Shown here: positions 15,942-47,151 of the stretch, in pieces
Position numbering within the stretch: the first letter of the stretch is position 1
Layout of the letters: every line of letters begins with the position of its first letter
Assembly: GCA_021782915.1 (NCBI GenBank)
Contig: JAJXUK010000013.1
Location: 1 to 47,638, forward strand
DNA length: 47,638 nucleotides
Origin: Actinomycetes bacterium
GTDB lineage: Bacteria > Actinomycetota > Acidimicrobiia > Acidimicrobiales > RAAP-2
Direction: 5' to 3'
Program-made: the position numbers and the translations under genes
The notes under the pieces: model-generated
The model's database searches: none
Seen by the model: only the letters and a program-made list of their open reading frames with translations
Told to the model about the DNA's origin: nothing

Positions 15942-15948
15942 GGCAGCC

Positions 15949-15954
15949 ACACTA
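15949..15954 (-). promoter_or_regulatory. -10 box (TAGTGT) of gcvT, overlapping an upstream stop codon
   Basis: TAGTGT ends 7 nt before the GTG at 15941. Its first three bases (15954-15952) are also the TAG stop of the upstream PD-(D/E)XK-like gene. Confidence 0.55.
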
Positions 15955-30744: not shown

Positions 30745-31613
30745 GACGGGGCCGTCTTCTTGCCAAAGAGACCGTTCGGGCGCACCGCCAAGACCACGAG
30801 GAAGAGCAGGTTCCCGGCGAGGACCTGGTACTCGGGATTGATGTGCTCGCCGAGCTGCTGGGCGATGCCGATGGCGATACCGCCGACCAACGTGCCCCAC
30901 AGCGAACCGATCCCGCCTACGACCACGGCCTCGAAGGCGTAGATCAGATTGGTCACTCCCGAGGACGGCGCGAACTCCGTCGTCATGCCGTAGGCGATGC
31001 CCGCCAGGGCCACGGTGGCAAACGCGATGCCGGCCGCGATGCCGAAGATGTGCCGGTAGTTGGCGCCACTGAGCTGGGCGGCCTCGCGATCATCCGACAC
31101 GGCGCGGATGAGGCGCCCGGTCTTGGTGTGGCCCAGGAAGATCTGCAGGGCGCCCAGGACCGCGACGGCGACGCCGAGCACGACCAGGGAGACGTACGAG
31201 ATGTAGATGGTGCTCGAGAGCTGGAACGAGCTGCCGATAAGCGAACCGATGTTGATGGACTGGCCGTTGGCGGTGTAGACCTCCAGCAGCAGGTTCTCGA
31301 TCAGCACCGACAGGCCAAAGGTCACCAGCAGCGTCGTGAAGGGGTCCCGATCGATGCTCTTCTGAATGAGCGTGCGCTGGACCACATAGCCGAGCAGTGC
31401 GAAGACGGGCACCACGACCACGAAGGACCACAGGGGCGACACGCCGAACTTCGGCGCCAGGAAGACCGCGGTGTAGCCCGCCACGACGGCGACGTCGCCG
31501 TGGGCGAGGTTGATCACCTTCATCACCCCGAACATCAGAGAGAGCCCGCAGGCGAAGAGGGCGTAGAAGCCCCCGACCAGCGCACCCTGGATGACGATGT
31601 TGAGCCAGGTCAC
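30741..31613 (-). CDS. livH: branched-chain-type ABC importer permease, LivH
   Basis: 290 residues, GTG start overlapping livF as GTGA. Typical LivH features: GGFYALFACGLSLMFGVMKVINLAHGD near the N-terminus, the coupling loop HTKTGRLIRAVSDDREAAQLSG, and AVVVGGIGSLWGTLVGG near the end. It pairs with LivM to make the membrane channel. The tetranucleotide overlaps through the whole set suggest fixed stoichiometry. Confidence 0.93.
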   Translation of the reverse strand: MTWLNIVIQGALVGGFYALFACGLSLMFGVMKVINLAHGDVAVVAGYTAVFLAPKFGVSPLWSFVVVVPVFALLGYVVQRTLIQKSIDRDPFTTLLVTFGLSVLIENLLLEVYTANGQSINIGSLIGSSFQLSSTIYISYVSLVVLGVAVAVLGALQIFLGHTKTGRLIRAVSDDREAAQLSGANYRHIFGIAAGIAFATVALAGIAYGMTTEFAPSSGVTNLIYAFEAVVVGGIGSLWGTLVGGIAIGIAQQLGEHINPEYQVLAGNLLFLVVLAVRPNGLFGKKTAPS

Positions 31614-32374
31614 GCCCCACCCCCGGCTCGGCGCTCGCTGTCGTGCAGCGATGCGCCAAAGTAGGCGCGCTCGATGTCGGCGTCGCTGAGCTCACCGGGC
31701 ACGCCGGTGAGCGAGGTGCGTCCCTCGAGCAGGCAGTGAACCCGAGTGGCGACCTTGAGTCCCTGGCCGACGTCCTGCTCCACGATGAGCACCGTCACTC
31801 CCTCGGCCACGATGCGCGGAATGACGTCGTAGATTCTCTCGATCACGATGGGCGCCAGGCCGAGGGATACCTCGTCGAGCAGCAGCAGACGCGGATTGGC
31901 GACCAGGGCCCGTCCGATGGCCACGGCCTGCTGTTCACCCCCGGAGAACTGCCAGACGCGCGAGCGGCGCCGCTCGCGCATCCAGGGGAAGAGCTCGTAG
32001 ATCGCCTCGATCGTGAAGGTACCCCGCGCGCCCTTGGTGGTGCCCACGAGGAGGTTCTCCTCCAGGGTCATCGACGAGAAGAGCCGCCGACCCTCCGGGA
32101 CCAGGGAGATCCCACGCGCGAAGCGCCGGTGAGGCGCCAGGCGCGAGATGTCGGCGCCCTCGAAGCTGATCGAGCCGCCGCTGGGCGTGTGCAGGCCCGC
32201 GATCGTGCGCAAGAGTGTCGACTTGCCCGCCCCGTTGGCCCCGATCATGGCGAGGACCTCACCACGGCTCACGCTGAACGAGACGTCCTCAACCGCACAG
32301 AGCTGTCCGTGATGCACCGAGAGGCCCGAGACCTCCAGGACCACGCTCGACTCGCCGGTGGGTGCATCGCTCAC
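31610..32374 (-). CDS. livF: ABC importer ATPase, LivF
   Basis: 254 residues, GTG start overlapping livG as GTGA. Walker A is GANGAGKST, the signature is FSGGEQQAVAIGRAL, Walker B is LLLLDEVSLGLAP, and the H-loop position is replaced in the usual LivF way by VLIVEQDVGQ. The PEGRRLFSSMTLEENLLVG segment identifies LivF rather than LivG. It hydrolyses ATP in the cytoplasm for uptake. Confidence 0.94.
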   Translation of the reverse strand: MSDAPTGESSVVLEVSGLSVHHGQLCAVEDVSFSVSRGEVLAMIGANGAGKSTLLRTIAGLHTPSGGSISFEGADISRLAPHRRFARGISLVPEGRRLFSSMTLEENLLVGTTKGARGTFTIEAIYELFPWMRERRRSRVWQFSGGEQQAVAIGRALVANPRLLLLDEVSLGLAPIVIERIYDVIPRIVAEGVTVLIVEQDVGQGLKVATRVHCLLEGRTSLTGVPGELSDADIERAYFGASLHDSERRAGGGA

Positions 32375-33111
32375 GAGTCCATCGCCTCGTTCAAGATGCG
32401 ATCACCGAGGTAGACGCGTCGCACCGCCTCCGAGGCCAAGACCGCGCGAGGCTCTCCGTCAGCCACCAGGGCTCCGCTCGCCAGACACAGCAGTCGGTCC
32501 ACCGTGGACAGCAGGGCGCGCACCACGTGCTCGATCCACAGGATCGTGACGCCCTCGGCGTTGATCGAGCGAATGATGCCCGTCAGTTCGGTCACCTCGA
32601 GGTCCGTCAGGCCGCCGGCGATCTCGTCCAGCAGCAGCAGGCGGGGCTGGGTCGCCAGTGCACGAGCCAGCTCGAGGCGCTTGCGCTGCATCAGCGTGAG
32701 GCTGCCCGCTGCACGGTTGGCCAACGACGACAGACCCGTGCGTTCCAGGGCCGAGAAGGCGGCTTCGTGGCTCTTGCGTCCGCGCAGGACCGCTCCCTGC
32801 TGGGAGCCGACGAGCGTGTTCTCGAAGACCGTCATGTTCTCGAAGGGGCGTGGCACCTGGTACGTGCGACCGATCCCGCTGCGACAGCGAACGGAGGGGT
32901 GCATCCGCTCCAGCGCCTGGCCGACGAAGTGGATCTGGCCACCGTAGAGACGAACGTCACCCGAGATGATGCCGAACAGTGACGTCTTGCCGGCTCCGTT
33001 GGGACCGACGATGCCCACTGCCTCGCCCTCCTCCAACTCGAAGTTGATGTCGTCGGCCACGACGACCTGGCCGAACTTCTTCGACACGTGCTCGAGCTGG
33101 AGGAGGGGCAT
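32371..33111 (-). CDS. livG: ABC importer ATPase, LivG
   Basis: 246 residues. Walker A GPNGAGKTSLFGIISG, Walker B LLLLDEIAGGLTD and H-loop position WIEHVVRAL are clear; the signature is the degenerate LTLMQRKRLELARAL, as usual in LivG where the LSGGQ is weak. RTYQVPRPFENMTVFENTLVG is typical LivG. It lies 16 bp after the binding-protein gene. Confidence 0.93.
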   Translation of the reverse strand: MPLLQLEHVSKKFGQVVVADDINFELEEGEAVGIVGPNGAGKTSLFGIISGDVRLYGGQIHFVGQALERMHPSVRCRSGIGRTYQVPRPFENMTVFENTLVGSQQGAVLRGRKSHEAAFSALERTGLSSLANRAAGSLTLMQRKRLELARALATQPRLLLLDEIAGGLTDLEVTELTGIIRSINAEGVTILWIEHVVRALLSTVDRLLCLASGALVADGEPRAVLASEAVRRVYLGDRILNEAMDS

Positions 33112-33127
33112 GGCGGCTGAGGCGGAA

Positions 33128-34537
33128 CTACTTGTTGGTCGGGCGCAGCACGCCCGTCAACGGCACCTGCTTGTTCAGGGTGTTGTCCACGACGTACGGC
33201 GACCACGGCCAGACCTTGCCACCCACGTTGGCCTTCGAGCCAGGCTTCCACTGGATGCCCACCGGCGGAATGATCGCCACACCCGGGGCCGGGCTCGTCT
33301 TGGCGTTGAAGTTCATCGGTCCCGAGATGCCGGTGTAGTTCACGTGGTGCAGTGCGTTGGCCACCGCCGAGCGGTCGTGCGGATTCTTGACCTTCTTCAG
33401 GGCCTCGATGACAACCTCGAAGAGCGAGTAGGTCGAGCCCATCGACTGGACCCACTGCTGACCGGTGAACTGCTGGTAGCCAATCGCGAACTGCTTGGCC
33501 GTCATGCCCGTCAATGAGGACTTGTAGGGCGCGTACGGCGTCCACCAGGCGTCTGTGGCGACGTTGTTGGACAGGCTGCCCAGTGCGTACACGTCCGTCG
33601 GAAAGAGCATCACCTTGGCCACGGTCGCGAGCTTGGGGCGCCACTGCTGCTGGGAGGCCTGCTTCCAGAAGGTGTTGAAGTCCGGCGGCAGCGGCGCGTT
33701 GACGAAGAACTCGGCCCCGCCCGACTTGAAGGTCTGGATCATCGACGTGTAGTTCGTTGACAAGTCCTGGTAGGCGCCGCCATCGATGAACTTCCACGCG
33801 TTCTTGGTCTCCGCGGCCACGATCGGCGGGAACGCCGCGCGGAAGGCGTTGCCGTCCGCGTCGTTCGGGAACATGCCGGCGTAGATCTTGGCGGCGTGGG
33901 TCTGCTTCTGGACGCGGTTCCACATCGGCAGGAAGCAGTTCACGAACTCGGGAACGCCGAAGAAGAACGTCGTGCAGTACTTGAAGGCCCCCGACTGGGC
34001 GGCGCCGGTGGCCGAGAGCGTGCCGCCCAGGCCCACGTACCACGCCTCCCACGGACAGACCGTCGAGACGCAGGGGATGCCCGCCTGCTCGCACACGGTC
34101 GACACGGGCACCGTCGTCTCCGGAGCCGAGCTGGTGACGATGATGTCCACGCCCTGGGCCTGGATCAACTGAGTGGTCACCTGGGCCGCGGTCGTCGGAC
34201 TCGACTGGGAGTCCGCGACGATGATCTGAATCTTGTAGGTCGTCGCGCCGACCTTGATGCCCTTGGCGAAGTACTGCGAGGCCTTCACGAGCTTGAGCAC
34301 GTAGTTGTCAGGGCCCGCGAAGGACGCGAGCGCGCCCGTCTGGGGCGTGACGTAGCCAATCTTGATCACGTTGCTGCCGCTGGCTGCGTAGCTGGCCGCG
34401 GACTGGCTCAACGCGCCCGCTCCCCCGGCCGCCGCCGCCACGCCCAGAGCCTTCAGGCCCATCCGTCGGCTGAACTCGAGGCTGCCCCAGCCCGGAATGC
34501 TTTCCGGTATCTGGCTCGCGCCCGTCTCCTGATTCAT
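33128..34537 (-). CDS. periplasmic-type substrate-binding protein (LivK/aromatic-acid type), Tat signal
   Basis: 469 residues, longer than LivK (~370). The N-terminus has a twin-arginine export signal (SRRMGLKALGVAAAAGGAGALS) after a 22-residue lead, so the protein is probably exported folded. The mature part is a type I periplasmic-binding fold: VIKIGYVTPQTGALASFAG, VTTQLIQAQGVDIIVTSSAP, TVCPWEAW, then FKYCTTFFFGVPEF. Size and place next to aromatic genes suggest an aromatic-acid ligand, inferred only. The ATG has a strong GAGGGGGGA site 4-5 nt upstream. Three Cys in the mature part are unusual. Confidence 0.85.
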   Translation of the reverse strand: MNQETGASQIPESIPGWGSLEFSRRMGLKALGVAAAAGGAGALSQSAASYAASGSNVIKIGYVTPQTGALASFAGPDNYVLKLVKASQYFAKGIKVGATTYKIQIIVADSQSSPTTAAQVTTQLIQAQGVDIIVTSSAPETTVPVSTVCEQAGIPCVSTVCPWEAWYVGLGGTLSATGAAQSGAFKYCTTFFFGVPEFVNCFLPMWNRVQKQTHAAKIYAGMFPNDADGNAFRAAFPPIVAAETKNAWKFIDGGAYQDLSTNYTSMIQTFKSGGAEFFVNAPLPPDFNTFWKQASQQQWRPKLATVAKVMLFPTDVYALGSLSNNVATDAWWTPYAPYKSSLTGMTAKQFAIGYQQFTGQQWVQSMGSTYSLFEVVIEALKKVKNPHDRSAVANALHHVNYTGISGPMNFNAKTSPAPGVAIIPPVGIQWKPGSKANVGGKVWPWSPYVVDNTLNKQVPLTGVLRPTNK

Positions 34538-34656: not shown

Positions 34657-35673
34657 CTAGGCGTGCGCCATCTCGGCCAGCATCCGGCGCGCGGCGAGTC
34701 CGCCGCGGTCGATCTTGATGCTCACCTCGGTCATCTCAGGCGACGACCCGAGACGTCGCTGCAGCACGTTGAGCGCGTCCACGTCCTCCTGGACCACGCC
34801 GGCCTGCATCTTGGACAAGAACAGATCGACCTCGCCGTCTCCGACACAGAAGTCCCGGGCCAGGGCCCAGAAGTCCCACACCGAGTCCTCGGTGCGGGGC
34901 GTGAGGCCGTAGAAGATCTTCATGTGAAAGGCGTGCTCGTCACTGCCGTCGGGCCGCGGTGGCTGGCCCACCGGCGCGATGCCCGAGTTGAGCTGGTAGA
35001 AGCCCGGTGGGTAGTAGTCGATGTCCTGCCAGCGATCCACCTGACCGGTCAGGCCAGTCGTGCGCGAGTAGAACGGTGGGCACTGCACGGCGTTCATGTG
35101 CCGATAGACGTGCACGACGCGACGCTCCTGGTCGGTCTCGACCTCGATGGGTGTCTCGGCCACCTCCGGCGTGCCGATGGAGCCGTGGTGCAGGAAGGTC
35201 TCGTGCGACAGGTCCAGCAGGTTGTCCACCAGGAGGGAGAACCCGCCGTCGATCTTGACCGCACCGCAGACCACTGACCAGTTCGTCGCGTCCTCGAGCC
35301 ACGGTGTCGCGGGCAGGGTGCCGGCGTCGGGCTCGCCGTGGCCCATCCAGATCCACACCCAGCACCCACGCTCCACCAGCGGGTAGTGCCGAACGCTCAA
35401 CTTGGAGGGAATCCGCTCCTGACCAGGTACCGCCACGCACGCGCCCGAGCAGTCAAACGTGAAGCCGTGATAGCCGCACACGAGCCGGTCCTCGACCAAT
35501 CGGCCGAGTGAGAGCGGGTAACCGCGATGCGGGCAGCGATCCGCCAGCGCGACGACCGTGCCGTGCGAATCCCGGAACATCACCACGTGCTCGCCCAGGA
35601 TCGTGCGCGACATCGGCTGCTCTGACAGCTCGCTGGACAGCGCGGCGACGTACCAGTGCTGACGTAGAAACAT
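34657..35673 (-). CDS. VanA-like Rieske non-haem iron oxygenase, terminal subunit
   Basis: 338 residues from ATG 35673, which has GAGGGGGG 4 nt upstream (the frame also opens at a GTG 12 nt earlier). The Rieske [2Fe-2S] ligands are Cys ~47, His ~49, Cys ~66 and His ~69 (CPHRGYPLS ... CGYHG). The mononuclear iron site is in NLLDLSHETFLHHGS (two His, with a later Asp). The size and motif set match VanA-type O-demethylases and related aromatic-acid oxygenases. Vanillate to protocatechuate is the likely reaction given the neighbours. It needs an electron donor (VanB), and none is encoded nearby. The gene heads the importer run and is divergent from the aldehyde dehydrogenase. Confidence 0.85.
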   Translation of the reverse strand: MFLRQHWYVAALSSELSEQPMSRTILGEHVVMFRDSHGTVVALADRCPHRGYPLSLGRLVEDRLVCGYHGFTFDCSGACVAVPGQERIPSKLSVRHYPLVERGCWVWIWMGHGEPDAGTLPATPWLEDATNWSVVCGAVKIDGGFSLLVDNLLDLSHETFLHHGSIGTPEVAETPIEVETDQERRVVHVYRHMNAVQCPPFYSRTTGLTGQVDRWQDIDYYPPGFYQLNSGIAPVGQPPRPDGSDEHAFHMKIFYGLTPRTEDSVWDFWALARDFCVGDGEVDLFLSKMQAGVVQEDVDALNVLQRRLGSSPEMTEVSIKIDRGGLAARRMLAEMAHA

Positions 35674-35772
35674 GGCCCCCCTCACTGCGCCACGCCACGC
35701 TGCGTACGACGCTGGCAGCGTAGTCCCGATGTGCTAAGCAAGCAACCACACCACGAGCGGGGGGACGTGATC

Positions 35773-37230
35773 ATGGGCTTTCTCGACGCTGCCCACTGGC
35801 AGTCGAACATCTTTCTGAAGGGCTGGCGCCCTGGTAGCGCCGGTGATGCGCCAGTCGTGGAGCCGGCCACGGGCAAGGAGTTGGCCCGCACCGGACGCGC
35901 CAGCGTGGCCGACGTCGCGGAAGCCGCCGCCGTGGCCGCCGCGGCCCAGCGCGCCTGGGCCGCTCTGCCCTTCACCCAGCGCAGCACCGTCATGCGCAGA
36001 GCCGGCCAGCTCCTGGTCGATCACGCCGAGGAGTTCAACGAGTGGATCATGCGCGAGACGGGCGGCATCGCCCCGAAGGCGCAGCTGGAGACCCACGTGG
36101 CCTCCGAGGAGTGCTTCGAGGCCGCCGCGCTCGCCTCGCACCCGACCGGCGACATCCTGCGCAGCGAGATGCCCCGGCTGAGCTTTTCACGCCGCGTGCC
36201 GGCGGGCGTGGTCGGCGTGATCGCGCCCTTCAACGTGCCGCTCATCCTCTCGATCCGCTCCGTGGCTCCGGCCCTCGCTCTGGGCAACGCGGTCATCCTC
36301 AAGCCCGACCCGCGCACGGCGGTCAGCGGCGGCGTGCTCCTGGCGCGGGTCTTCGAAGAGGCCGGCGTGCCCGAGGGCGTCTTCTCCGTGCTGCCCGGCG
36401 GGGGCGACGTCGGCGAGGCCCTGGTCATCGAGCCTCGGGTGCGCGTCATCGCCTTCACCGGCTCGACCCAAGTCGGACGCAGCGTTGGCGCCCTGGCCGC
36501 CCAACATCTCAAGCGGGCCCACCTGGAACTGGGCGGCAACTCGGCGTTGATCGTCCTGCACGACGTCGATCTGCAGAAGGCCGCCTCGGTGGGCGCCTTC
36601 GGCTCCTTCTTGCACCAGGGCCAGATCTGCATGACGACGGGGCGCCACCTCGTCGATGCGCGCATCGCCGAGGACTACGCGGCGATCCTGGCCGAGAAGG
36701 CCAACCACCTGCCAGTCGGTGATCCGATGTCCGGCACCGTGGCGATGGGACCGCTGATTGACGCCAAGCAGCGCGACAAGGTTCACCGCATGGTGACCGA
36801 GACCGTGGACGCCGGCGCCACCCTGGCCGCCGGGGGCACCTACGAAGACCTCTTCTACCGGCCCACCGTACTGACCAACGTCTCTGTCAAGGCCTCGGCC
36901 TACTGCGAGGAGGTCTTCGGACCTGTCGCACCGATCGTGCCCTTCCACTCGCTGGACGAGGCCGTGGCCCTGGCCTCGGACTCGCCCTACGGGCTCAGTC
37001 TGGGCATCCTCTCGAGCGACGGGCTGCGCGCCCTCGAGCTGGCCGAGCGCATCCCCACCGGGGCCATCCACATCAACGACCAGACCGTGCACGATGAGGC
37101 GGTCATCCCCTTTGGCGGCGTCGGCCACTCGGGCAACGGCTCACGCATGGGCGGCATGGCCAACCTCGAGGCCTACACGGAGACCCAGTGGGTCACCGCC
37201 CAGGCCGACATGCCCGACTACCCGTTCTGA
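35773..37230 (+). CDS. aromatic aldehyde dehydrogenase (vanillin/benzaldehyde dehydrogenase type)
   Basis: 485 residues from ATG 35773, which has GGGGGGA about 9 nt upstream. NAD-linked ALDH features are VVGVIAPFNVPLILSIRS, FTGSTQVGRSV, catalytic-base Glu ~252 in LELGGNSA and nucleophile Cys ~286 in GQICMTTGR. FLDAAHWQSNIFLKGWRP at the N-terminus is characteristic of the vanillin/benzaldehyde branch. It would oxidise an aromatic aldehyde to the acid that the Rieske enzyme uses. Convergent with pobA, divergent from the Rieske gene. Confidence 0.88.
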   Translation: MGFLDAAHWQSNIFLKGWRPGSAGDAPVVEPATGKELARTGRASVADVAEAAAVAAAAQRAWAALPFTQRSTVMRRAGQLLVDHAEEFNEWIMRETGGIAPKAQLETHVASEECFEAAALASHPTGDILRSEMPRLSFSRRVPAGVVGVIAPFNVPLILSIRSVAPALALGNAVILKPDPRTAVSGGVLLARVFEEAGVPEGVFSVLPGGGDVGEALVIEPRVRVIAFTGSTQVGRSVGALAAQHLKRAHLELGGNSALIVLHDVDLQKAASVGAFGSFLHQGQICMTTGRHLVDARIAEDYAAILAEKANHLPVGDPMSGTVAMGPLIDAKQRDKVHRMVTETVDAGATLAAGGTYEDLFYRPTVLTNVSVKASAYCEEVFGPVAPIVPFHSLDEAVALASDSPYGLSLGILSSDGLRALELAERIPTGAIHINDQTVHDEAVIPFGGVGHSGNGSRMGGMANLEAYTETQWVTAQADMPDYPF

Positions 37231-37291
37231 GCCCGCCCCGCGCGAGCCTCGCGGCACCGGCGTCGCGCACGTCGTGGGCTTCCACGTAGCC

Positions 37292-38476
37292 CTAGAGGCT
37301 GCACGCGTCCACGTAGTGTCGCGCCAGGGCCCGCGCCGTGGGCTCGGACTCGACCACCTGGCGCAGGCGCGCGAGCTGGACGCGATTCTCGAACTCGTCG
37401 TGGGGATTCGGGTGCAGCATCTGAGTCATGTAGGTCGAGAACTCCTCGGCGCGCCAGACGTGGCGCAGGCACGTGTCGCTGTAGGCGTCCAGCAGACGAG
37501 TGTCGTTCTCACGCAACGCGGCCACCAGGGCCGGCACGAGGACACGCACGTCGGCCAACGCGAGGTTCATCCCCTTGGCGCCCGTCGGCGGAACGATGTG
37601 CGCAGCGTCACCGGCCAGCACGAGTCGCCCGTGGCGCAGCGGCTCTAGGACGATGTTGCGCATGGCCGTGATGCCGCGCTCGAGGATGGGCCCGGTCTGG
37701 AGCTGGCCGTGAGCTCCCTCACCCAGGCGCGTCGCGAGCTCGTCCCAGATGCGCTCGTCGGACCAGTCCGCCAGATTCTCGTCGGGGGCCACACCCAAAT
37801 ACAGACGCACGAGCTCGGGCGAGCGCATCGAGTACAGGGCGAAGCCGCGCTCGTGACGGCTGTAGATCAACTCGTCATTGACCGGCGCGGCCTGGGCCAG
37901 GATGCCCAGCCAGGCGAAGGGATAGACCCTCTCGAAGCGACGGCGCACCAGCGCGGGCACGGACTGGCCGGTCACGCCGTGCGTACCGTCACAACCGGCA
38001 ACGTAGGCGGCGTGGATGCGAAGTGGCCCCTCGGGCGTGTTCGCGTCCACGAAGGGTCGCTCGGTGTCAATGCCCTCGATTGCGCGGACCTCAGACTCGA
38101 AGTGAAGGGCCGCGCCGTGGAAGTTGAGCCGCAGGCCGATCAGGTCCTTGACCACCTCCTGCTGGCCGTAGACGGTGATGGCCCGTCCGTCGGCCAACTC
38201 GAGGAAGTTGATACGGTGCGCGCCGTTCTCAAATCGCAGTTGAATGCCGTGGTGTGCCAGGCCCTCGCGGCGCATGCGCTCACCGACACCCGCCTCGGCC
38301 AGCATCTCGGTGATTCCGTACTCGAGAACACCCGCACGCTGACGATGCTCGACGTAGTCCCGGGTGCGACGCTCGAGCACGATGTTGTCCACACCCTGCA
38401 GGTGCAGCAGGTGCCCGAGGACCAGGCCCGCGGGGCCCGCGCCCACGATGACCACCTGCGTGCGAACCTCGCGCAT
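37292..38476 (-). CDS. pobA: 4-hydroxybenzoate 3-monooxygenase
   Basis: 394 residues, the usual PobA length. FAD-binding motifs: GAGPAGL at residues 12-18, CDGTHGVTG (the DG motif) and LVLAGDAAHIVPPTGAKGMNLA (the GD motif). The substrate-side signatures RQRAGVLEYG and LYLGVAPDE match PobA. It converts 4-hydroxybenzoate to protocatechuate with NAD(P)H and oxygen, feeding the lig operon. The ATG has a GGGGAG site 3-4 nt upstream. It is divergent from ligK across a 140-bp shared promoter region. Confidence 0.94.
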   Translation of the reverse strand: MREVRTQVVIVGAGPAGLVLGHLLHLQGVDNIVLERRTRDYVEHRQRAGVLEYGITEMLAEAGVGERMRREGLAHHGIQLRFENGAHRINFLELADGRAITVYGQQEVVKDLIGLRLNFHGAALHFESEVRAIEGIDTERPFVDANTPEGPLRIHAAYVAGCDGTHGVTGQSVPALVRRRFERVYPFAWLGILAQAAPVNDELIYSRHERGFALYSMRSPELVRLYLGVAPDENLADWSDERIWDELATRLGEGAHGQLQTGPILERGITAMRNIVLEPLRHGRLVLAGDAAHIVPPTGAKGMNLALADVRVLVPALVAALRENDTRLLDAYSDTCLRHVWRAEEFSTYMTQMLHPNPHDEFENRVQLARLRQVVESEPTARALARHYVDACSL

Positions 38477-38502
38477 GACTCCCCTTCACTAGATGGAACC
38501 GC

Positions 38503-38522
38503 GGACCGAAGTGTAGTGGTCC
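38503..38522 (-). promoter_or_regulatory. possible operator between pobA and ligK
   Basis: GGACC-N10-GGTCC surrounds TACACT (minus strand), a possible pobA -10. Arms are only 5 bp. Confidence 0.25.
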
Positions 38523-38574
38523 ACCGCACGAGCTCCTCAGCTGGCGGACGCGGACGACGTGCGAGACGGGCGTC

Positions 38575-38580
38575 TAGATT
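38575..38580 (+). promoter_or_regulatory. -10 box (TAGATT) of the lig operon
   Basis: TAGATT lies 36 nt before the ligK ATG. A GGGGGG Shine-Dalgarno (38605-38610) follows, so the lig operon has a leadered transcript. Confidence 0.45.
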
Positions 38581-38616
38581 CAGTAGCCGCAGCGCCAATG
38601 TGACGGGGGGTCGACC

Positions 38617-39300
38617 ATGGCCGTAGTGATGCGCAACACACCGCGCACGGACCTCGCGATCGTGGACGCCCTGGCGGGCTTCGGCGTGGCGACCCTGCAC
38701 GAGGCCCAGGGCCGCCGAGGACTGTTCGCCGCGCGCCTGCGCCCGATCTACCGACCGGTGCGTGTGGCCGGCACCGCACTGACCTGCGAGGTGGCCCCGG
38801 GGGACAACTGGTCCATCCACGTCGCGGTCGAAGTGGCACGACCCGGGGACATCCTGGTGGTCACTCCCACCAGTCCCTGCGAGGACGGCTACTTCGGCGA
38901 ACTGCTGGCAACCAGTCTGATCGCCCGCGGCGTGCGTGGCCTCGTCATTGACGCCGGGGTCCGCGACGTCGCCGAGCTGAGCGCCATGGGCTTTCCCGTG
39001 TGGTCCCGAGCGATCAACGCCCAAGGCACGATCAAGGAGACGCCCGGCAACGTCCAGACGCCGATCGTGTGCGCCGGAGCCTACGTCCAGCCCGGCGACG
39101 CCATCGTGGCCGACGACGACGGCGTCGTCGTCATCGCGCGCCACGAGGCGGGCGCGGTCCTGGCGCGAGCCGAGGAGCGTGAGAGCAACGAGGCCGACAA
39201 GCGCACGCGCCTCGCGGCCGGCGAGCTCGGCCTGGACATGTACGCTATGCGCGACAAGCTCGCCGAGAGGGGCCTCGTCTATCGGGACTTCGAAGGATGA
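38617..39300 (+). CDS. ligK: 4-carboxy-4-hydroxy-2-oxoadipate / 4-hydroxy-4-methyl-2-oxoglutarate aldolase
   Basis: 227 residues of the HMG/CHA aldolase (RraA-like) family. Features: [13 protein letters not shown] near the N-terminus, [28 protein letters not shown] carrying the Gly loop and the conserved Arg-Asp of the metal/pyruvate site, and [13 protein letters not shown]. It splits CHA into pyruvate and oxaloacetate, the last step of 4,5-cleavage, and may also decarboxylate oxaloacetate. It is the first gene of the operon, with a strong ribosome site, and overlaps the next gene by ATGA. Confidence 0.93.
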
Positions 39301-40391
39301 GGCCGACGGCGATACCGGCCGCGCTCATGCGTGGCGGCACGTCCAAGGGCCTGATGTTCCTCGCCACCGACCTGCCCGCGGAGCCGCGCGTGCGCGACGC
39401 GGTCCTGCTGGCGGCGATGGGCTCGCCGGACGCGCGCCAGATCGATGGCGTGGGCGGGGCCCATCCTCTGACCTCCAAGGTCGCCGTCGTGAGCGCCTCG
39501 CCACGCGCGGACGCCGACGTGGAGTACCTCTTCTTGCAAGTCTGGCCCGATCGAGCCGAGGTGTCGGACCAGCAGAACTGTGGCAACATGCTCGCCGCCG
39601 TCGGTCCCTTCGCCCTCGAGCGCGGGCTGCTGAGCCCACGCCACGAGCGCACACCAGTTCGCATCTGGATGCAGAACACCCAGAGCCTGGCCGTGGCCAC
39701 CGTCGAGACGCCCGACGGGCAGGTCACCTACGAGGGTGACGCCGCCATTGACGGCGTGCCCGGACACCACGCGCCGATTCCCATCGAGTTCCTGGACGTC
39801 GCCGGATCCAGTTGCGGCGCTCTGCTGCCCACGGGTCGTGTCGTCGACGAGATCGAGTCCACGAGGGTGACACTGATTGACAATGGCATGCCCGTCGTCT
39901 GCCTCGCCGCGCGCGACCTGGGACTCGAGGGATACGAGAGTCCCGCGCAGCTGGAGGCTGACTCGGGTCTGCGCGAGCGCCTCGAGGCGATTCGCGTGCG
40001 GGCCGGGCAACTGATGAACCTGGGCGACGTGCGCGGGGCCACCGTGCCCAAGATGAGCATCCTGTCCCCGGCGCGCCACGGGGGCCTCATCAACACGCGC
40101 ACCTTCATTCCGCACCGCGTCCACGAGGCCATCGGGGTCTTCGGGGCGGTCTCGGTCGCTACCGCCTGCCTGCTGCCCGGCTCGGTCGCGCACCAGATGA
40201 CGGGTGGTCCCGTGCGCGCCGGTCGACACGACGTGACCGTCGAGCACCCCAGCGGCTACTTCACCGTCTTTCTCGACGTGGTCGTCGAGGCCGACGACGT
40301 GCGCGTGGAACGCGCGGCCCTGCTGCGCACCGCTCGGCTGTTGATGGACGGTGCCGTCATGGTGCCCGCTCGAGTCTGGGAGAGACGGTGA
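39297..40391 (+). CDS. ligU: 4-oxalomesaconate tautomerase (GalD/LigU, PrpF family)
   Basis: 364 residues. PrpF-family features: [14 protein letters not shown] at the N-terminus, [15 protein letters not shown], and [15 protein letters not shown] carrying a conserved Cys. It moves the double bond between keto and enol forms of oxalomesaconate so that LigJ can hydrate it. Overlaps ligK by ATGA and ligJ by GTGA. The name ligU follows Sphingobium; galD is the Pseudomonas name. Confidence 0.9.
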
Positions 40392-41407
40392 TCATCGACT
40401 GCCACGGCCACTACACCACCGCCCCTGCGGCCCACACCACGTGGCGCGACGAGCAGCTCATCGCCTACGAGGCCGGTGTGGGCGCCCCCACGTATCCGCA
40501 CATCTCCGACGACGAGATCCGCGAGAGCATCGAGCAGAACCAGCTGCGCCTGATCCGCGAGCGCGGGGCCGACCTGACGATCTTCTCTCCGCGCGCCTCG
40601 GCGATGGCCCACCACCTCGGCGATGAGTCGGTGAGCATCGCGTGGACTCGCGCCTGCAATGACCTGATCGCCCGCGTGGTGGCTCTGTACCCGGAGAGCT
40701 TCGCGGGCGTCTGTCAGCTCCCCCAGTCCCCCGGGGCTCCCATCAGCAACTCCATCGGTGAACTCGAGCGATGCGTGAACGAGCTCGGCTTCGTGGGCTG
40801 CAACCTCAACCCTGATCCCTCCGGCGGGCGCTGGAACGGCCCACCGCTCACCGACCGGTCGTGGTACCCGTTCTACGAGGCGATGGTCGCCCTGGACGTG
40901 CCGGCCATGATCCACGTCTCCAGCAGCTGCAACGACAACTTCCACGCCACGGGCGCTCACTACCTCAATGCCGACACCACCGCGTTCATGCAGCTGCTCC
41001 AGGGTGAGCTGTTCGCCGACTTTCCCACGCTTCGCTTCATCATCCCGCACGGAGGCGGGGCCGTTCCCTACCACTGGGGCCGCTATCGCGGCCTGGCCGA
41101 CATGCTGCACAAGCCCGAGCCCGCCGAGCACGTCATGGGCAACGTCTACTTCGACACCTGCGTGTACCACCAGCCCGGGATCGACCTGCTCGTGCAGGTC
41201 ATCGATCACCAGAACATTCTCTTCGGCTCCGAAATGCTCGGTGCGGTGCGCGGGCTCGACCCGCGCAGCGGTCAGTACTACGACGACACCAAGCGCTACG
41301 TCGACGCCGCAGTGCTCAGTGAGTCCAGCCGCGCGCAGATCTACGAGGCCAACGCTCGACGAGTCTTCCCACGCCTTCACGCCCGCCTCGTCGGCCAGGG
41401 ACGCTAA
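40388..41407 (+). CDS. ligJ: 4-oxalomesaconate hydratase
   Basis: 339 residues, amidohydrolase fold, GTG start overlapping the tautomerase stop. Metal ligands: [10 protein letters not shown] at the N-terminus (H-x-H), MIHVSSSCND, and PHGGGAVPYH; NILFGSEMLGA near the end supplies the acid. It adds water to 4-oxalomesaconate, forming CHA for LigK. Shares one base (TAATG) with ligI. Confidence 0.93.
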   Translation: MIIDCHGHYTTAPAAHTTWRDEQLIAYEAGVGAPTYPHISDDEIRESIEQNQLRLIRERGADLTIFSPRASAMAHHLGDESVSIAWTRACNDLIARVVALYPESFAGVCQLPQSPGAPISNSIGELERCVNELGFVGCNLNPDPSGGRWNGPPLTDRSWYPFYEAMVALDVPAMIHVSSSCNDNFHATGAHYLNADTTAFMQLLQGELFADFPTLRFIIPHGGGAVPYHWGRYRGLADMLHKPEPAEHVMGNVYFDTCVYHQPGIDLLVQVIDHQNILFGSEMLGAVRGLDPRSGQYYDDTKRYVDAAVLSESSRAQIYEANARRVFPRLHARLVGQGR

Positions 41408-42299
41408 TGGGACGATTCACGATGGACGCGGACTGGCTCGTCTTCGATCCGACGCCCTCGAAACCCGCCTACGTGCTGCCCGCGGGCGCGGTGGACGCGC
41501 ACTGTCACGTCTTCGGGCCCGGCGACGAGTTCCCCTACGCGCCCGAGCGCAAGTACACGCCGTGCGACGCCGGCAAGGACGCCCTGTTCGCCCTGCGTGA
41601 CCACTTGGGCTTCAGTCGCAACGTCATCGTCCAGGCCACGTGTCACGGCGCCGACAACTCCGCGATGCTCGACGCCCTGCACGCCTCACACGGTGCGGCG
41701 CGCGGAGTGGCCACGGTGCGCGACGACATCACCGACGACGAGCTGGGGGACCTGCACCGCGCTGGAGTGCGCGGAGTGCGCTTCAACTACGTGCGCCGCC
41801 TCGTTGATCCCCGGCCCGACGAGTACTACCGGCGCATCGTCGAGCGCATCGGCCCACTGGGCTGGCACGTGGTCATCTACTTCGAGGCCGCCGACCTGGC
41901 TGAGCGCGCAGACTTCTTCCGCTCCCTGGACACCACGCTGATCGTGGATCACATGGCTCGACCCGACGTCACCAAGTCCGCGACGGGACCCGACTTCGAC
42001 GCCTTCGTGCGCTTCATGGAGGAGAACGAGAACGTCTGGACCAAGGTGACCTGCCCCGAGCGTCTCTCGGTGAGCGGCCCGCCCGGCTACGACGACGTCG
42101 TGCCCTTCGCGCGACGGATCGTCGATGAGTTCGAGGACCGCGTGCTGTGGGGCACGGACTGGCCCCACCCGAACCTCAAGGGCCATATGCCCGACGACGG
42201 GGCGCTCGTCGACTTCATCCCGCGCATCGCCACGAGCAGCGCGAAACGGGCCAAACTGCTGGTGGACAACCCCCACCAGCTCTATTGGGGGGAGGGCTG

Positions 42300-42300
<1 letters not shown>
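41407..42300 (+). CDS. ligI: 2-pyrone-4,6-dicarboxylate lactonase
   Basis: 297 residues, amidohydrolase fold. Features: AGAVDAHCHVFGPGDEFPY at residues ~27-45, VIVQATCHGADNSAML, LIVDHMARPD, TKVTCPERLS and the acid in WGTDWPHPN. It opens PDC, made by LigC, to 4-oxalomesaconate. The sequence has a 27-residue N-terminal stretch before the first motif, typical for LigI. Coupled to ligJ (TAATG) and ligA (TGATG). Confidence 0.94.
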
Positions 42301-43531
<1,231 letters not shown>

Positions 43532-43540
43532 GGAGACCGC

Positions 43541-44488
43541 ATGCGCATCGCACTCGCCGGTGCCGGAGCCTTCGGCATCAAGCATCTGGACGGGCTGCGC
43601 CGCATCGGCGGTGTCGAGGTCAGCGCCGTCGTCAGCCGCCGCCTTGATCAGGCACGAGACGTCGCTGCGCGCTACGGTGCGCACCTGGCGACAACGGAGC
43701 TCGATGAGGCTCTCGCGCGCGACGACGTGGACGCCGTCATCCTGTGCACGCCCACCCAGATGCACGCCGCCCAGGCCATCGCCACGATGCGTGCCGGAAA
43801 GCACGTCCAGGTGGAGATACCCCTGGCCGACTCATGGGCCGACGCGCTCGCCGTGCGAGACGTGCAACGCGAGACGGGCCTCGTGTGCATGGTGGGGCAC
43901 ACTCGGCGCTTCAACCCCTCACACCAGTGGATCCATCAGCGCGTGGTCGCTGGTGAGCTCCGCGTGCAGCAGATGGACGTGCAGACCTACTTCTTCCGAC
44001 GCACGAACACCAACGCCCTCGGTCAGCCCCGCAGCTGGACGGACAACCTGCTCTGGCACCACGCCGCGCACACGATTGACCTCTTCAGCTACCAGTGTGG
44101 CGAGCCGATCGTGCGAGCCAACGCCCTGCAGGGCCCGGTCCATCCCGTACTCGGGATCCCGATGGACATGTCGATCCAGCTGCTCAGCCAGTCAGGCGCC
44201 ATATGCACGTTGTCCTTGAGCTTCAACAACGACGGACCCCTCGGAACCTTCTTCCGCTATATCTGTGACAACGGCACCTTCATCGCGCGCTACGACGACT
44301 TGGTCAGCGGTCGCGACGAGCCGATTGACGTTTCGGGCGTCGCGGTTTCCATGGACGGCATCGAGCTGCAGGATCGCGAGTTCATCGCCGCGATTCAGGA
44401 GGGGCGCGAGCCGAACGCCGCCATTGACCAGGTACTCGAGTGCTACCAGGTCCTCGGCCAACTCGACGCGCAACTTTCGCACCACTAG
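43541..44488 (+). CDS. ligC: 4-carboxy-2-hydroxymuconate-6-semialdehyde dehydrogenase
   Basis: 315 residues, Gfo/Idh/MocA fold. ALAGAGAFGIKHLDGL is the NADP-binding Rossmann motif; CTPTQMHAAQAI and VQVEIPLADS are the usual next strands (EIP in place of EKP is typical of LigC); CMVGHTRRFNPSHQWIH and LLWHHAAHTIDLF hold the active site. It oxidises the hemiacetal of the ring-cleavage product to PDC. It has the best Shine-Dalgarno of the operon (AAGGAG) and a 9-bp gap after ligB, and is its last gene. Confidence 0.93.
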   Translation: MRIALAGAGAFGIKHLDGLRRIGGVEVSAVVSRRLDQARDVAARYGAHLATTELDEALARDDVDAVILCTPTQMHAAQAIATMRAGKHVQVEIPLADSWADALAVRDVQRETGLVCMVGHTRRFNPSHQWIHQRVVAGELRVQQMDVQTYFFRRTNTNALGQPRSWTDNLLWHHAAHTIDLFSYQCGEPIVRANALQGPVHPVLGIPMDMSIQLLSQSGAICTLSLSFNNDGPLGTFFRYICDNGTFIARYDDLVSGRDEPIDVSGVAVSMDGIELQDREFIAAIQEGREPNAAIDQVLECYQVLGQLDAQLSHH

Positions 44489-44787
44489 GGCGTTGGCCCA
44501 CTCAACTCGGTGACTGCGCGCGGCCCATCACGGACCAATGGCGGCTCGAACACGGGCGCAATTCGATCAAGTTGACCCGAAATTGGCTGCACGTTGTGAC
44601 TGTGTTGAGCCCTTCGCAACAGGATTGTGACACTCGTGAGCAAGTGTTCGCTCGCAGGAGCATCTCCGCCACGACGAATGTTGACATCTTCATCCCGAGG
44701 GCAGAATCCGATGACCAACGCATCCGTGAGCCAACACCGGGCGCGCGTCCTCACGCCCCGGCCCAGCCCGTGGAGCCGGGCCCGACG
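44489..44787 (+). promoter_or_regulatory. long regulatory region upstream of the GGDEF-EAL gene
   Basis: Contains two direct copies of TTGTGAC (44594-44600 and 44625-44631; 31 bp apart) flanking an inverted repeat TGTTG-N9-CAACA (44603-44621). A TTGACA (44681-44686) lies 15 bp before CAGAAT (44702-44707), a possible sigma-70 promoter. A short leader ORF starts at 44711. Confidence 0.4.
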
Positions 44788-44791
44788 ATGA
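44711..44791 (+). CDS. possible 26-residue leader peptide
   Basis: ATG 44711 follows a GAGGG site (44697-44701, 9-nt spacing). The frame encodes 26 mostly basic residues, starts MTNASVSQHRARVL, and ends at a TGA that overlaps the GGDEF-EAL start as ATGA (44788-44791). The downstream ATG has no good ribosome site of its own, so translation may be coupled. If instead the CAGAAT box is used, this ORF would not be on the transcript. Confidence 0.35.
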   Translation: MTNASVSQHRARVLTPRPSPWSRARR

Positions 44792-47151
44792 CCCCGGAGA
44801 ACGCGCTCGCCACGAGCCCAGCCCACGCCGCTCCGCGTCGCCCCGCCATCGCGTGGCTCGCCCTGGTCACCCAACTACTCGCGGGCCTCGCGATGATCCT
44901 GTTCACGGTACTCACCCTGATCCAGCTGCACGACTCGGCCCGGCACGACACGCTCTACCGGCTGATCGAGCAGATCGCCCTGGCCATCCCGTTCCTAGTG
45001 ATCATCGTGAATGCCCACACTCGCCTGAGTACCCGTCGGGCCTGGTGGACGATGGCGGCCGGCGTCATCCTCTTCGACGCCGCGCACGTCTTCGCCCAGT
45101 TCAGCCCCGTTGGCTGGGTCCTGCCCACCGGGCTCAGTCTCTCGGACGTGCTGTACGCACTGTCGTACCTCGCGGTCTCGGTGGGCGCCGCCCTGCTCAT
45201 GCAGCAGTCGTTCGGGGTGCGCATGAACAGCGTGCGCCTGGACGGGATCATCGCCGGCCTCGCGCTCGTCTCGCTCACCTCCATCTTCTGGTTCCACCAA
45301 GCCATCAAGATGGACGGGCACCCAATCATCGCGGAACTCAACATCTTCAACCCACCACTGGTGATCGTCGTGATCGTCCTGCTCTGCGCGGGGCTGGTGC
45401 CGCGACACTTTCGCACCGACGTGACGATGTCACTGCTCCTGCTCGGACTGGGCTCCTTCGCGATCGGTGACGTGCTCGCACTCAACCAGGCCGCGCTGGG
45501 CGCCTGGGGCCGTGGCGACCTGGTCGAGCTCTCCCGGGTGCTGGGCATCTATCTCTTCGGGGTAGCAGCCTGGCCGCGAGAGGACCGTCGCCGCGACGCT
45601 CCGACGCCGGGTATGCCCACGCGCGGGCTCATTCTGGTCCCGGTCATCTTCGGCACGCTCTCAACCGGCGTGCTGGCGTACTCACTCATTCGCCACATGT
45701 CAGATTCGACCCGCCTGATGGCTCTGGGCTCGCTCTCCCTCGTCATCCTGCGCATGGTCCTGACGCAGAACGAGGTGCGCGAGATCGGCCGGGCCAGCTT
45801 CATCGACGCGCGTACGGACAACGTCACCGGACTGGCGAACCGTCGCGCATTCCTCGAGGACGGCGAGAGCCGACTCAACGCCCTGCGCGCCGACGAGCGC
45901 CTCGGCATCGTCCTCATCGACCTCGACGGCTTCAAGGAGGTGAATGACTCTCTCGGCCACGCCCACGGTGACGAGCTCCTGCGCATCGTCGCCGAACGCT
46001 TCACCGAGCGCCTCGGGCGACGCGGCGTCGTCGCACGACTGGGTGGCGACGAATTCGCCTACACCTTCGTCATCGGCCCGGACGAGGATCCCCTGACGTC
46101 GGCGGCCGAGCTGCAACGCACGCTGAGTGCTCCGGTGTCGATCGACGGAACCAAGGTGCGGGTGTCCGCCTCCGTCGGCGTGGCCCTCTACCCCGATCAC
46201 GGCGACTCGCACGCGGCCCTGTTGCGCAGCGCGGACGTGGCGATGTACGAGTCCAAGCACCAGCGCAGCGGCGTGTGCCTCTACCGCGACGAGATCGACC
46301 TCAACAGTCGCGAACGCCTGGCACTGACCAACGAGTTGCGCACGGCCATCGATCGACACCGCCTCACGCTGCACTTCCAGCCCACGCACGCACTGGGCAC
46401 CATGTCCGTGCACGGAGTCGAGGCGCTCGTGCGCTGGGAGCACCCCGAGCGGGGCCTGCTGATGCCCGACGAGTTCATCCAGCTCGCCGAGCGCGTCGGC
46501 CTCATCCGCTCGCTGACTCGCACCGTGCTGGACATGGCGATCACCGAGCTCGCTCGGCTCGACCGCAACGGTCACTCCCTGCAGATGAACGTGAACATCT
46601 CGCAGTGGGACCTGATGGATGAGTCGCTGCCGGACTCCATCGGGCGCATCCTTGACTGGTTCGAGATCGAGCCGAGCCGCCTCGTGCTCGAGGTGACCGA
46701 GTCAGCCCTGAGCCAGGATGCCGAACGAGCGCACCACAACCTGACGCGTCTGCGCTCCACGGGCGTGCGCGTGTCAGTCGACGACTTCGGCGTGGGCTAC
46801 TCCTCGATGTCTCAACTCCTGGGCCTGCCCGTGGACGAGTTAAAGGTGGACAAGTCCTTCGTGCTGGCCATCGACGAGGACCCACGCGCCATCTCCCTCA
46901 TCCGATCCATGGTCGAGATGGCTCACGCCCTCGACCTCTCGGTGACCGCGGAGGGCGTCGAGAATGCTGAGAACTTCCAGACCCTGCGCGCCATCGGGGC
47001 CGACGTCGCCCAGGGCGAGTACTTCTCGCTCGCTTTGAGCTCGGCGGACCTGGACGAGTATCTCGCCCGGGCCGACGGCCGGATCGCCGACCTGGTGCCT
47101 GCTCCACTCGGACCCGCTCCCGAAACCCCCCGGCACCTTCGCCTGGTCTGA
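44788..47151 (+). CDS. membrane GGDEF-EAL protein (cyclic-di-GMP metabolism)
   Basis: 787 residues from ATG 44788 (the frame is open upstream but starts are unclear). About nine hydrophobic segments within the first ~330 residues form a membrane sensor domain. The GGDEF domain has an intact GGDEF at about 419-423 (RLGGDEFAYTF), preceded by the usual LANRRAFLEDG and LIDLDGFKEVNDSLGHAHGDELL. The EAL domain begins with EALVRW at ~545, with MNVNISQWDL, VLEVTESAL, DDFGVGYSSMSQLL and ELKVDKSFV; the late QGEYFS replaces the more common QGYxFS. Both synthesis and breakdown of c-di-GMP are possible. It lies between the aromatic island and the rRNA operon, with no obvious link to either. Confidence 0.92.
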   Translation: MTPENALATSPAHAAPRRPAIAWLALVTQLLAGLAMILFTVLTLIQLHDSARHDTLYRLIEQIALAIPFLVIIVNAHTRLSTRRAWWTMAAGVILFDAAHVFAQFSPVGWVLPTGLSLSDVLYALSYLAVSVGAALLMQQSFGVRMNSVRLDGIIAGLALVSLTSIFWFHQAIKMDGHPIIAELNIFNPPLVIVVIVLLCAGLVPRHFRTDVTMSLLLLGLGSFAIGDVLALNQAALGAWGRGDLVELSRVLGIYLFGVAAWPREDRRRDAPTPGMPTRGLILVPVIFGTLSTGVLAYSLIRHMSDSTRLMALGSLSLVILRMVLTQNEVREIGRASFIDARTDNVTGLANRRAFLEDGESRLNALRADERLGIVLIDLDGFKEVNDSLGHAHGDELLRIVAERFTERLGRRGVVARLGGDEFAYTFVIGPDEDPLTSAAELQRTLSAPVSIDGTKVRVSASVGVALYPDHGDSHAALLRSADVAMYESKHQRSGVCLYRDEIDLNSRERLALTNELRTAIDRHRLTLHFQPTHALGTMSVHGVEALVRWEHPERGLLMPDEFIQLAERVGLIRSLTRTVLDMAITELARLDRNGHSLQMNVNISQWDLMDESLPDSIGRILDWFEIEPSRLVLEVTESALSQDAERAHHNLTRLRSTGVRVSVDDFGVGYSSMSQLLGLPVDELKVDKSFVLAIDEDPRAISLIRSMVEMAHALDLSVTAEGVENAENFQTLRAIGADVAQGEYFSLALSSADLDEYLARADGRIADLVPAPLGPAPETPRHLRLV

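Follow-up and report, generated by a model that had tools for sequence, protein, structure and literature searches.

A protocatechuate 4,5-cleavage operon in an actinobacterial genus of the Acidimicrobiales

Described clusters and the Acidimicrobiales operon

The 4,5-cleavage route for protocatechuate is best known from Proteobacteria. Three of its enzymes, LigU, LigJ and LigK, also serve downstream of gallate cleavage. The solved structures of LigI, LigU and LigJ presumably come from Sphingobium sp. SYK-6 or its kin. The solved LigAB dioxygenase, 1b4u, is likewise that of strain SYK-6, according to the excerpted text of PMC8431788. The actinobacterial 4,5 route is on record for Arthrobacter sp. 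FB24 and Pseudarthrobacter/A. keyseri, and the literature also mentions 'other Actinobacteria'. The PMC8431788 excerpt gives SHxPA, NDHA, DHG and GxSH as motifs of the two-subunit class III extradiol protocatechuate 4,5-dioxygenase.

The window is the whole 47,638-nucleotide stretch of DNA that was analysed. On sequence grounds, it very probably comes from an actinobacterium of the Acidimicrobiales and holds an intact catabolic gene cluster, which would take lignin-type aromatics to pyruvate and oxaloacetate via the 4,5 route. The pathway is known and the system is not of a new kind; what is new is the lineage, for which no description of the 4,5 pathway was found in the literature searched.

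The genes ligK, ligU, ligJ, ligI, ligA, ligB and ligC form a tightly packed single operon on the plus strand (38617–44488), and none of the seven contains an internal stop. LigK (38617–39300) is the 4-carboxy-4-hydroxy-2-oxoadipate aldolase of the last step, which yields pyruvate and oxaloacetate; it scores 326.4 bits against TIGR02798 (cut-off 304.5) and its best PDB match is 3noj (E 1.7e-86). LigU (39297–40391), the 4-oxalomesaconate tautomerase/Delta-isomerase, scores 520 bits against NF033377 (cut-off 440; best PDB match 6p3j, E 9.5e-126). LigJ (40388–41407), the 4-oxalomesaconate hydratase, starts with GTG, overlaps LigU by 4 bases, has an Amidohydro_2 domain and is closest in the PDB to 6dxq (E 8.1e-174), with no NCBIfam model matching it. 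LigI (41407–42300), the 2-pyrone-4,6-dicarboxylate hydrolase, best matches 4d8l (E 5.5e-102) and carries DAHCH, VDHM and GTDWPH, presumably its metal/catalytic sites. LigC (43541–44488), the 4-carboxy-2-hydroxymuconate-6-semialdehyde dehydrogenase, has PF19858 and GFO_IDH_MocA domains and is closest to PmdC (9azo, E 1.8e-153). The NCBIfam matches of LigI and LigC are to models of other enzymes only, far under cut-off, and no model of their own passed.

The dioxygenase is encoded as two proteins. The alpha subunit LigA (42300–42686), a protein of 128 aa with its own gene, belongs to PF07746 and scores 197.7 bits against TIGR02792 (cut-off 108.6). The catalytic beta subunit LigB (42686–43531) scores 500.5 bits against NF009903 (cut-off 317) and best matches 1b4u (E 9.3e-137). 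LigB has all four class III motifs and retains the His-His-Glu iron ligands H12, H59 and E240, which are the same in all 14 rows of the alignment, as well as H125 and H193; the loss of iron ligands that the preliminary description named as evidence against its reading is not seen. For each of the six large enzymes the top solved-structure match is the expected pathway enzyme, and LigA passes a curated model, so that the full Lig set (LigAB, C, I, U, J and K) is present and intact, as first described. The translational coupling proposed there fits the junctions, which are overlaps of 4, 4, 1, 1 and 1 bases followed by a 9-base gap between LigB and LigC.

The order K-U-J-I-A-B-C was also described as nearly the reverse of the reaction order. 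It is, but the arrangement is common to some Proteobacteria, which add one gene. Clusters of Alpha- and Gammaproteobacteria (for example Parvularcula, Hyphomonas and Halieaceae MAGs) read K-U-X-J-I-A-B-C, where X, placed after LigU and before LigJ, is a DUF1932 gene (PF09130). The order in the genus is the same save for X, and full identity of gene order was rejected because of this extra gene. The run K-U-X-J-I-A-B is found in nine proteobacterial loci, in three of which LigC is ahead of LigK or unseen, and K-U-J-I-A-B without X is found in none. A DUF1932 relative, which is not known to be needed by the pathway, precedes LigJ in 51 of the 60 LigJ-bearing proteobacterial loci. No such relative was detected at E values up to 1e-5 in the 40 LigB-positive genomes of the genus, including the present one, and the 4-base overlap leaves no room for it here. 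A pathway step may be missing along with the DUF1932 gene, since no role for this gene was found in the literature. The genus, in which the pathway genes stand together without it, offers a handle on that role.

In the proteobacterial loci L043, L065, L083 and L096, LigK, U, J, I, B and C are 62–75% identical to those of the window. Sphingobium sp. SYK-6 and other sphingomonads have the same enzymes, with separate LigA and LigB and the same iron ligands. However, in 38 of 69 proteobacterial loci, mostly of sphingomonads, U and K face away from X-J, whereas the genus has a single operon. Arthrobacter sp. FB24 has the order J-K-I-(AB)-C, a fused LigA-LigB and a place elsewhere in the tree of LigJ, LigB and LigC (J+B+C). 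Here the two subunits have separate genes with a 1-base overlap, unlike the one-chain dioxygenase of Arthrobacter.

Flanking genes and the proposed route

Divergent from ligK is PobA, a 4-hydroxybenzoate 3-monooxygenase (37292–38476, minus strand), with 536.4 bits against NF006091 (cut-off 351) and 1cj2 as best PDB match (E 1e-117); with the narrower TIGR02360 it scores 454 bits, under the cut-off of 538.7. An aromatic aldehyde dehydrogenase of the 4-hydroxybenzaldehyde/vanillin type (35773–37230, plus strand; PF00171) has the motifs ELGG and GQIC. It is closest to the 4-hydroxybenzaldehyde dehydrogenase 9jw2 (E 8.8e-99) and also matches the vanillin dehydrogenase 9ihb (E 6.8e-85); its top NCBIfam model, succinic semialdehyde dehydrogenase, is under cut-off. 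The earliest open start of this frame is a GTG at 35731.

A Rieske oxygenase with a VanA_C domain, as in the vanillate O-demethylase VanAB, is encoded at 34657–35685 on the minus strand. It has the motifs CxH-x16-CxxH and DLSHETFLH, and is a probable aryl O-demethylase. The preliminary description called it VanA-like, which holds at the family level (PF00355 and PF19112, both above cut-off); however, its best solved relative is dicamba O-demethylase (3gb4, E 1.4e-46), and no VanB-like reductase partner was recognised among the PF00970 and PF00111 matches of the genome. The single PF00970 match is a siderophore-interacting protein, and of the three PF00111 matches one is NuoG-like and two are untyped. 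The top NCBIfam match of the Rieske protein is a sterol monooxygenase, far under cut-off. Its plasmid relatives among the matches listed are at most 51% identical, and those with an annotation are named ring-hydroxylating dioxygenases only.

A Liv-type importer (29728–34537, minus strand) follows. It consists of a substrate-binding protein (33128–34537, PF13458), LivG-like and LivF-like ABC ATPases (32371–33111 and 31610–32374) and two BPD_transp_2 permeases, in the LivH position (30741–31613) and the LivM position (29728–30900). The start of the latter is uncertain, its longest frame overlapping its neighbour by 160 bases. The neighbours first listed, PobA, aldehyde dehydrogenase, oxygenase and importer, are thus all beside the operon, but the importer lies outside the range 34657–44488 to which it had been assigned. 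No Rieske-aldehyde dehydrogenase-importer block was seen beside the proteobacterial clusters, where the stretches covered extend no further than about 8 kb before LigB.

In the proposed route, lignin-type aromatic acids and aldehydes would enter through the Liv-type importer. The aldehyde dehydrogenase would oxidise 4-hydroxybenzaldehyde or vanillin, PobA would form protocatechuate by hydroxylating 4-hydroxybenzoate, and the Rieske enzyme would probably O-demethylate vanillate or a similar compound, which is the weakest step. LigAB would then open protocatechuate by 4,5 cleavage to CHMS, which LigC would oxidise to 2-pyrone-4,6-dicarboxylate and LigI would convert to oxalomesaconate by ring opening. 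After isomerisation by LigU and hydration by LigJ, LigK is predicted to release pyruvate and oxaloacetate.

Distribution, phylogeny and alternative origins

LigB is found in 40 of 99 genomes of the genus. The same gene order, for which the preliminary description proposed a search in related genomes, is complete in 19 of the 22 read (own included), and contig ends truncate the other three. In all 20 genomes that reach that point, LigK has a divergent PobA as its neighbour; the Rieske and aldehyde dehydrogenase genes then follow in 16 of the 22, and the importer is present, whole or partial, in 15.

A phylogeny of LigB, LigJ and LigC had also been proposed. In the J+B+C tree the genus rows (n=19) form one clade (100/99), joined with four other actinobacterial MAGs (99/97) and apart from Arthrobacter and Streptomyces. 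Grouping all 27 actinobacterial rows into one clade is rejected by an AU test (p 2.87e-5). In this unrooted tree the actinobacterial clade joins an alphaproteobacterial group at 67/98, the group itself having support of 47/86. Nesting within the Alphaproteobacteria was rejected, the position being that of a sister. In the LigB-only tree the genus and the four MAGs are not joined. To judge from the combined tree, the operon belongs to an actinobacterial branch of lig genes distinct from the Arthrobacter/Streptomyces type. Actinobacterial cases, previously described as few, are more numerous and have at least two origins.

The RpoB set comprised 30 genomes; three without a match and three with RpoB in pieces only were dropped, as was G102, which had a very long branch and gave the same row when its frame was re-chosen. 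The tree built from the remaining 23 genomes of the genus has four subclades compatible with those seen for the operon.

Three alternative readings bear on these results. A contig of proteobacterial origin within an actinobacterial bin might be suspected from the draft state of the genome (84 contigs), from LigB identities of 66–75% to proteobacterial copies in the best 80 loci, and from a gene order largely common to some of those loci. Contamination is nevertheless extremely improbable and was rejected. The same operon recurs in other genus genomes, GC content is 67.7% for operon and window alike, the four subclades are compatible with RpoB, the closest LigB is that of a genus-mate (87%), and the DUF1932 gene of the proteobacterial clusters is missing from the genus version. 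A proteobacterial contig would have refuted the preliminary description by its own terms, but the contig is actinobacterial, because the genus-mates match named Acidimicrobiaceae/Acidimicrobiales MAGs. Repeated gain by separate species of the genus, rather than retention from a common ancestor, would fit the presence of LigB in a minority of genomes and the four changes its distribution requires on the RpoB tree; this is unlikely given the single clade of 19 rows, the RpoB-compatible subclades, and the PobA gene, often with the flanking block, that travels with the operon. The operon is probably old in the genus and mostly inherited.

The operon could instead act mainly on gallate or another catechol acid. 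LigU, LigJ and LigK are shared with the gallate route, and gallate dioxygenase is among the matches of LigB (E 5.7e-75). LigAB takes part in a 3-O-methylgallate route, according to the excerpted text of PMC8027834. However, LigB scores 458 bits with the protocatechuate enzyme and 255 bits with the gallate one, the operon also has LigC and LigI, and PobA, a maker of protocatechuate, adjoins it in all 20 genus genomes whose contigs extend that far. This makes a main role in the use of gallate or another such acid very unlikely.

Protocatechuate cleavage in the genus and its setting

The preliminary description advised a search for pcaGH elsewhere in the genome, and neither PF00775 nor TIGR02422 (pcaH) has a match there, in an assembly 97.16% complete. 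None of the 99 genus genomes has a pcaH match above the cut-off of 296.4 bits, and 4,5 cleavage is therefore the only protocatechuate ring cleavage detected in the genus. Matches under the cut-off occur in 14 of the 99. Their PF00775 proteins were rejected as pcaGH, all 15 matches being at or below 55.4 bits; the three that were typed best fit catechol/chlorocatechol 1,2-dioxygenase models, though under those cut-offs. Among 395 genomes of the class, 21 have pcaH above cut-off, 14 have LigB and none has both, but this mutual exclusion was discarded as evidence because the overlap expected by chance is below one. Together with the family models, solved relatives and genus synteny, the lack of pcaH matches argues that an actinobacterium has the complete 4,5 route, as first proposed. 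A second PF02900 protein of the genome (C39, L032:8223-9305) was rejected as a further ring-cleavage enzyme at a family match of just 96.6 bits; it is presumably a YgiD/DOPA-dioxygenase-like protein.

On balance, it seems somewhat probable that the block of about 15 kb, from the importer through the O-demethylase, aldehyde dehydrogenase and PobA genes to the compact, DUF1932-free 4,5 operon, serves a small-genome peat and soil genus of Acidimicrobiales as its usual and sole route for protocatechuate. It would represent an unrecognised actinobacterial branch of lignin-aromatic breakdown, the result of an ancient acquisition separate from that of the Arthrobacter type. The genus copies would be misassigned wherever metagenome annotation takes lig genes as proteobacterial by default. 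The breakdown of plant phenolics in peat and permafrost bears on carbon release. The source organism is a small-genome actinobacterium, and the isolate names of its genus-mates (palsa, bog, Chersky, BOG) suggest an origin in peat and permafrost.

The lig operon and its flanking genes

The genes for LigK, LigU, LigJ, LigI, LigA, LigB and LigC lie in that order on the plus strand at 38617-44488, with overlaps of 4, 4, 1, 1 and 1 bases at successive junctions, then a 9-base gap. Curated models place LigK, LigU, LigA and LigB each above cut-off. No curated model of its own enzyme passed for LigJ, LigI or LigC, for which the closest solved structures are 4-oxalomesaconate hydratase, 2-pyrone-4,6-dicarboxylate hydrolase and PmdC, respectively. 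The match of LigB to 1b4u, the SYK-6 enzyme (PMC8431788), spans residues 1-280 of 281; LigB has SHxPA, NDHA, DHG and GxSH, the motif list given in the same paper. The iron-ligand positions H12, H59 and E240 are invariant among the 14 actinobacterial LigB sequences aligned, as are histidines 125 and 193. The claim of a real, intact lig operon in the preliminary description is borne out by gene content, models, solved relatives and motifs, and its reading of a 4,5-cleavage route in an actinobacterium is right in the main. The pathway and its enzymes are themselves already known. At 44440-47151 the plus strand also encodes a GGDEF-EAL (c-di-GMP) protein of 903 aa, whose longest frame begins within the 3' end of ligC.

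PobA (37292-38476, minus strand) is divergent from ligK and has 4-hydroxybenzoate hydroxylases as its closest solved structures; it passed model NF006091 and not the narrower TIGR02360. Next is an aldehyde dehydrogenase (35773-37230, plus strand); the solved dehydrogenases nearest to it are those for 4-hydroxybenzaldehyde, benzaldehyde, salicylaldehyde and vanillin, and its top NCBIfam model, under cut-off, is succinic semialdehyde dehydrogenase. The Rieske protein (34657-35685, minus strand) has a VanA_C domain, CxH-x16-CxxH and DLSHETFLH, and its nearest solved structure is dicamba O-demethylase. A search for a reductase partner gave a single PF00970 match, a siderophore-interacting protein, and three PF00111 matches, one of them NuoG-like. 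Beyond the Rieske gene are the five genes of a Liv-type importer (29728-34537, minus strand). No regulator beside the lig operon was found among the scanned ORFs, small ORFs being covered in part.

Gene content, intactness, motif conservation, gene order and co-occurrence are established directly. From established family knowledge, 4-hydroxybenzoate or vanillin-type molecules would be converted to protocatechuate, which would yield pyruvate and oxaloacetate by way of CHMS, PDC and oxalomesaconate.

The genome, of 2.15 Mb and 97% complete, is in 84 contigs, number 73 being the window; GC is 67.7% in the operon and in the whole window alike. Elsewhere in the window, the minus strand carries glycine cleavage genes at 12014-15971, a T-protein followed by a P-protein as two adjoining genes, and two stretches of a 535-aa protein at 1060-2667 match Thy1, the flavin-dependent thymidylate synthase family.

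Occurrence and gene order in the genus

LigB is present in 40 of the 99 genus genomes, a few times as fragments only; of the 59 good genomes, 24 have it. In the class sample (395 genomes, E up to 1e-30) it was found in 16, of which 14, own genome included, are at least 60% identical and two 33-34%. Five of 396 phylum-sample genomes have it, four (own included) at 65% or above and one at 40%. One phylum-sample genome (G442, family f69) has two LigB genes, loci L114 and L116, distant on one contig and 61-65% identical to that of the window.

A check for pcaGH elsewhere in the genome found no match to PF00775, the wider dioxygenase family. The pcaH model TIGR02422 was over cut-off in none of the 99 genus genomes and in 21 of 395 class genomes, at a strict cut-off that is exceeded in two of the four control genomes with matches. 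Matches under cut-off occur in 14 of 99 genus genomes, the top score being 55.4 against a cut-off of 296.4. PF00775 is also found in 14 of 99 (15 matches); the three matches that were typed are all catechol/chlorocatechol 1,2-dioxygenase-like, and pcaGH identity was rejected for them. In class-sample families f36 and f39, LigB is present in some genomes and pcaH over cut-off in others, with both in none sampled, numbers too small for a claim of mutual exclusion.

The same gene order was found in relatives. Gene order was read in 22 of the 40 genus genomes that have LigB, the window's own among them: K-U-J-I-A-B-C is whole in 19, and in the other three (G788, G831, G781) the operon runs off the contig end with the order retained in the visible part. 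The 19 include G756 (L052/L152), where LigU is spread over two frames by a frameshift or assembly error. PobA adjoins LigK in all 20 genomes whose contig extends there. Beyond PobA, 16 of 22 have the Rieske and aldehyde dehydrogenase genes, and 15 of 22 the importer, complete or partial. In G099 and G776, the 18-19 kb stretches read contain no Rieske-aldehyde dehydrogenase-importer block.

Comparison with proteobacterial clusters

The comparison set comprised 80 loci, 69 of them counted as proteobacterial by record title. LigJ is on the LigB strand in 60 of these 69. Immediately upstream of LigJ, 51 of these 60 loci have a DUF1932-type gene; the other nine include short contigs. Such dehydrogenase-like DUF1932 genes lie before LigJ at L083:4787-5671, L061:4783-5700 and L096:4778-5695, and Pfam confirmed PF09130 for three of the proteins, one actinobacterial. 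The proteobacterial loci have the order K-U-DUF1932-J-I-A-B in nine cases and K-U-J-I-A-B in none, and in 38 U and K face away from DUF1932-J. In the window's genus, however, LigU adjoins LigJ with nothing of this kind between them in 19 of 19 complete operons, and the two overlap in the window. Relatives of the DUF1932 protein are found in just two of 99 genus genomes, both LigB-negative, at 27-28% identity. Other actinobacterial MAGs differ among themselves: L051 and L061 have both the DUF1932 gene and PobA, L110 has U-J-I-A-B-C without the DUF1932 gene, and only J-I-A-B-C is visible in L038. Nothing was found in the literature on a role of DUF1932 in protocatechuate breakdown.

No description of the 4,5 route in Acidimicrobiales was found in titles and abstract openings, subscription papers and preprints lying mostly outside the search, and an earlier mention elsewhere is possible. 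The lig clusters discussed in PMC8027834, whose main text never mentions Acidimicrobi*, are proteobacterial; PMC13264449 names Acidimicrobiales and protocatechuate separately. To the known pathway the analysis adds the spread of the route through one actinobacterial genus, apparently in sole role there, a compact operon that lacks the DUF1932 gene, and a history distinct from the Arthrobacter type.

Descent of the operon

Of the 79 rows of the LigB tree, one is the window's, 20 come from the genus, 19 from other actinobacteria and 39 from Proteobacteria. The tree drew on 46 of the 80 loci, two duplicates being dropped and 32 omitted for thinning. The genus is split off by a branch at 89, with weak placement. 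In a LigJ, LigB and LigC tree of the 52 of 79 rows with all three genes, the genus is supported at 100/99 and clusters with four other actinobacterial MAGs at 99/97, not with Arthrobacter or Streptomyces. This actinobacterial clade has a mainly alphaproteobacterial group (47/86) as its sister, with 67/98 for the pair. A single clade of all 27 actinobacterial rows was rejected (AU test, p 2.87e-5). The 4,5 route of actinobacteria therefore goes back to at least two histories, that of the genus being separate from Arthrobacter and Streptomyces.

Within the genus, operon descent was probably mostly vertical, with loss or occasional gain. RpoB was queried in 30 genus genomes and matched in 27, with 24 in the first tree and 23 in the last. 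RpoB-compatible operon subclades are G771, G777 and G770; G250, G756 and G775; G760 and G099; and G787, G779, G763 and G354. The window itself has no resolved placement in either the RpoB or the operon tree. The presence of LigB on the RpoB tree (14 with, 9 without) requires four changes.
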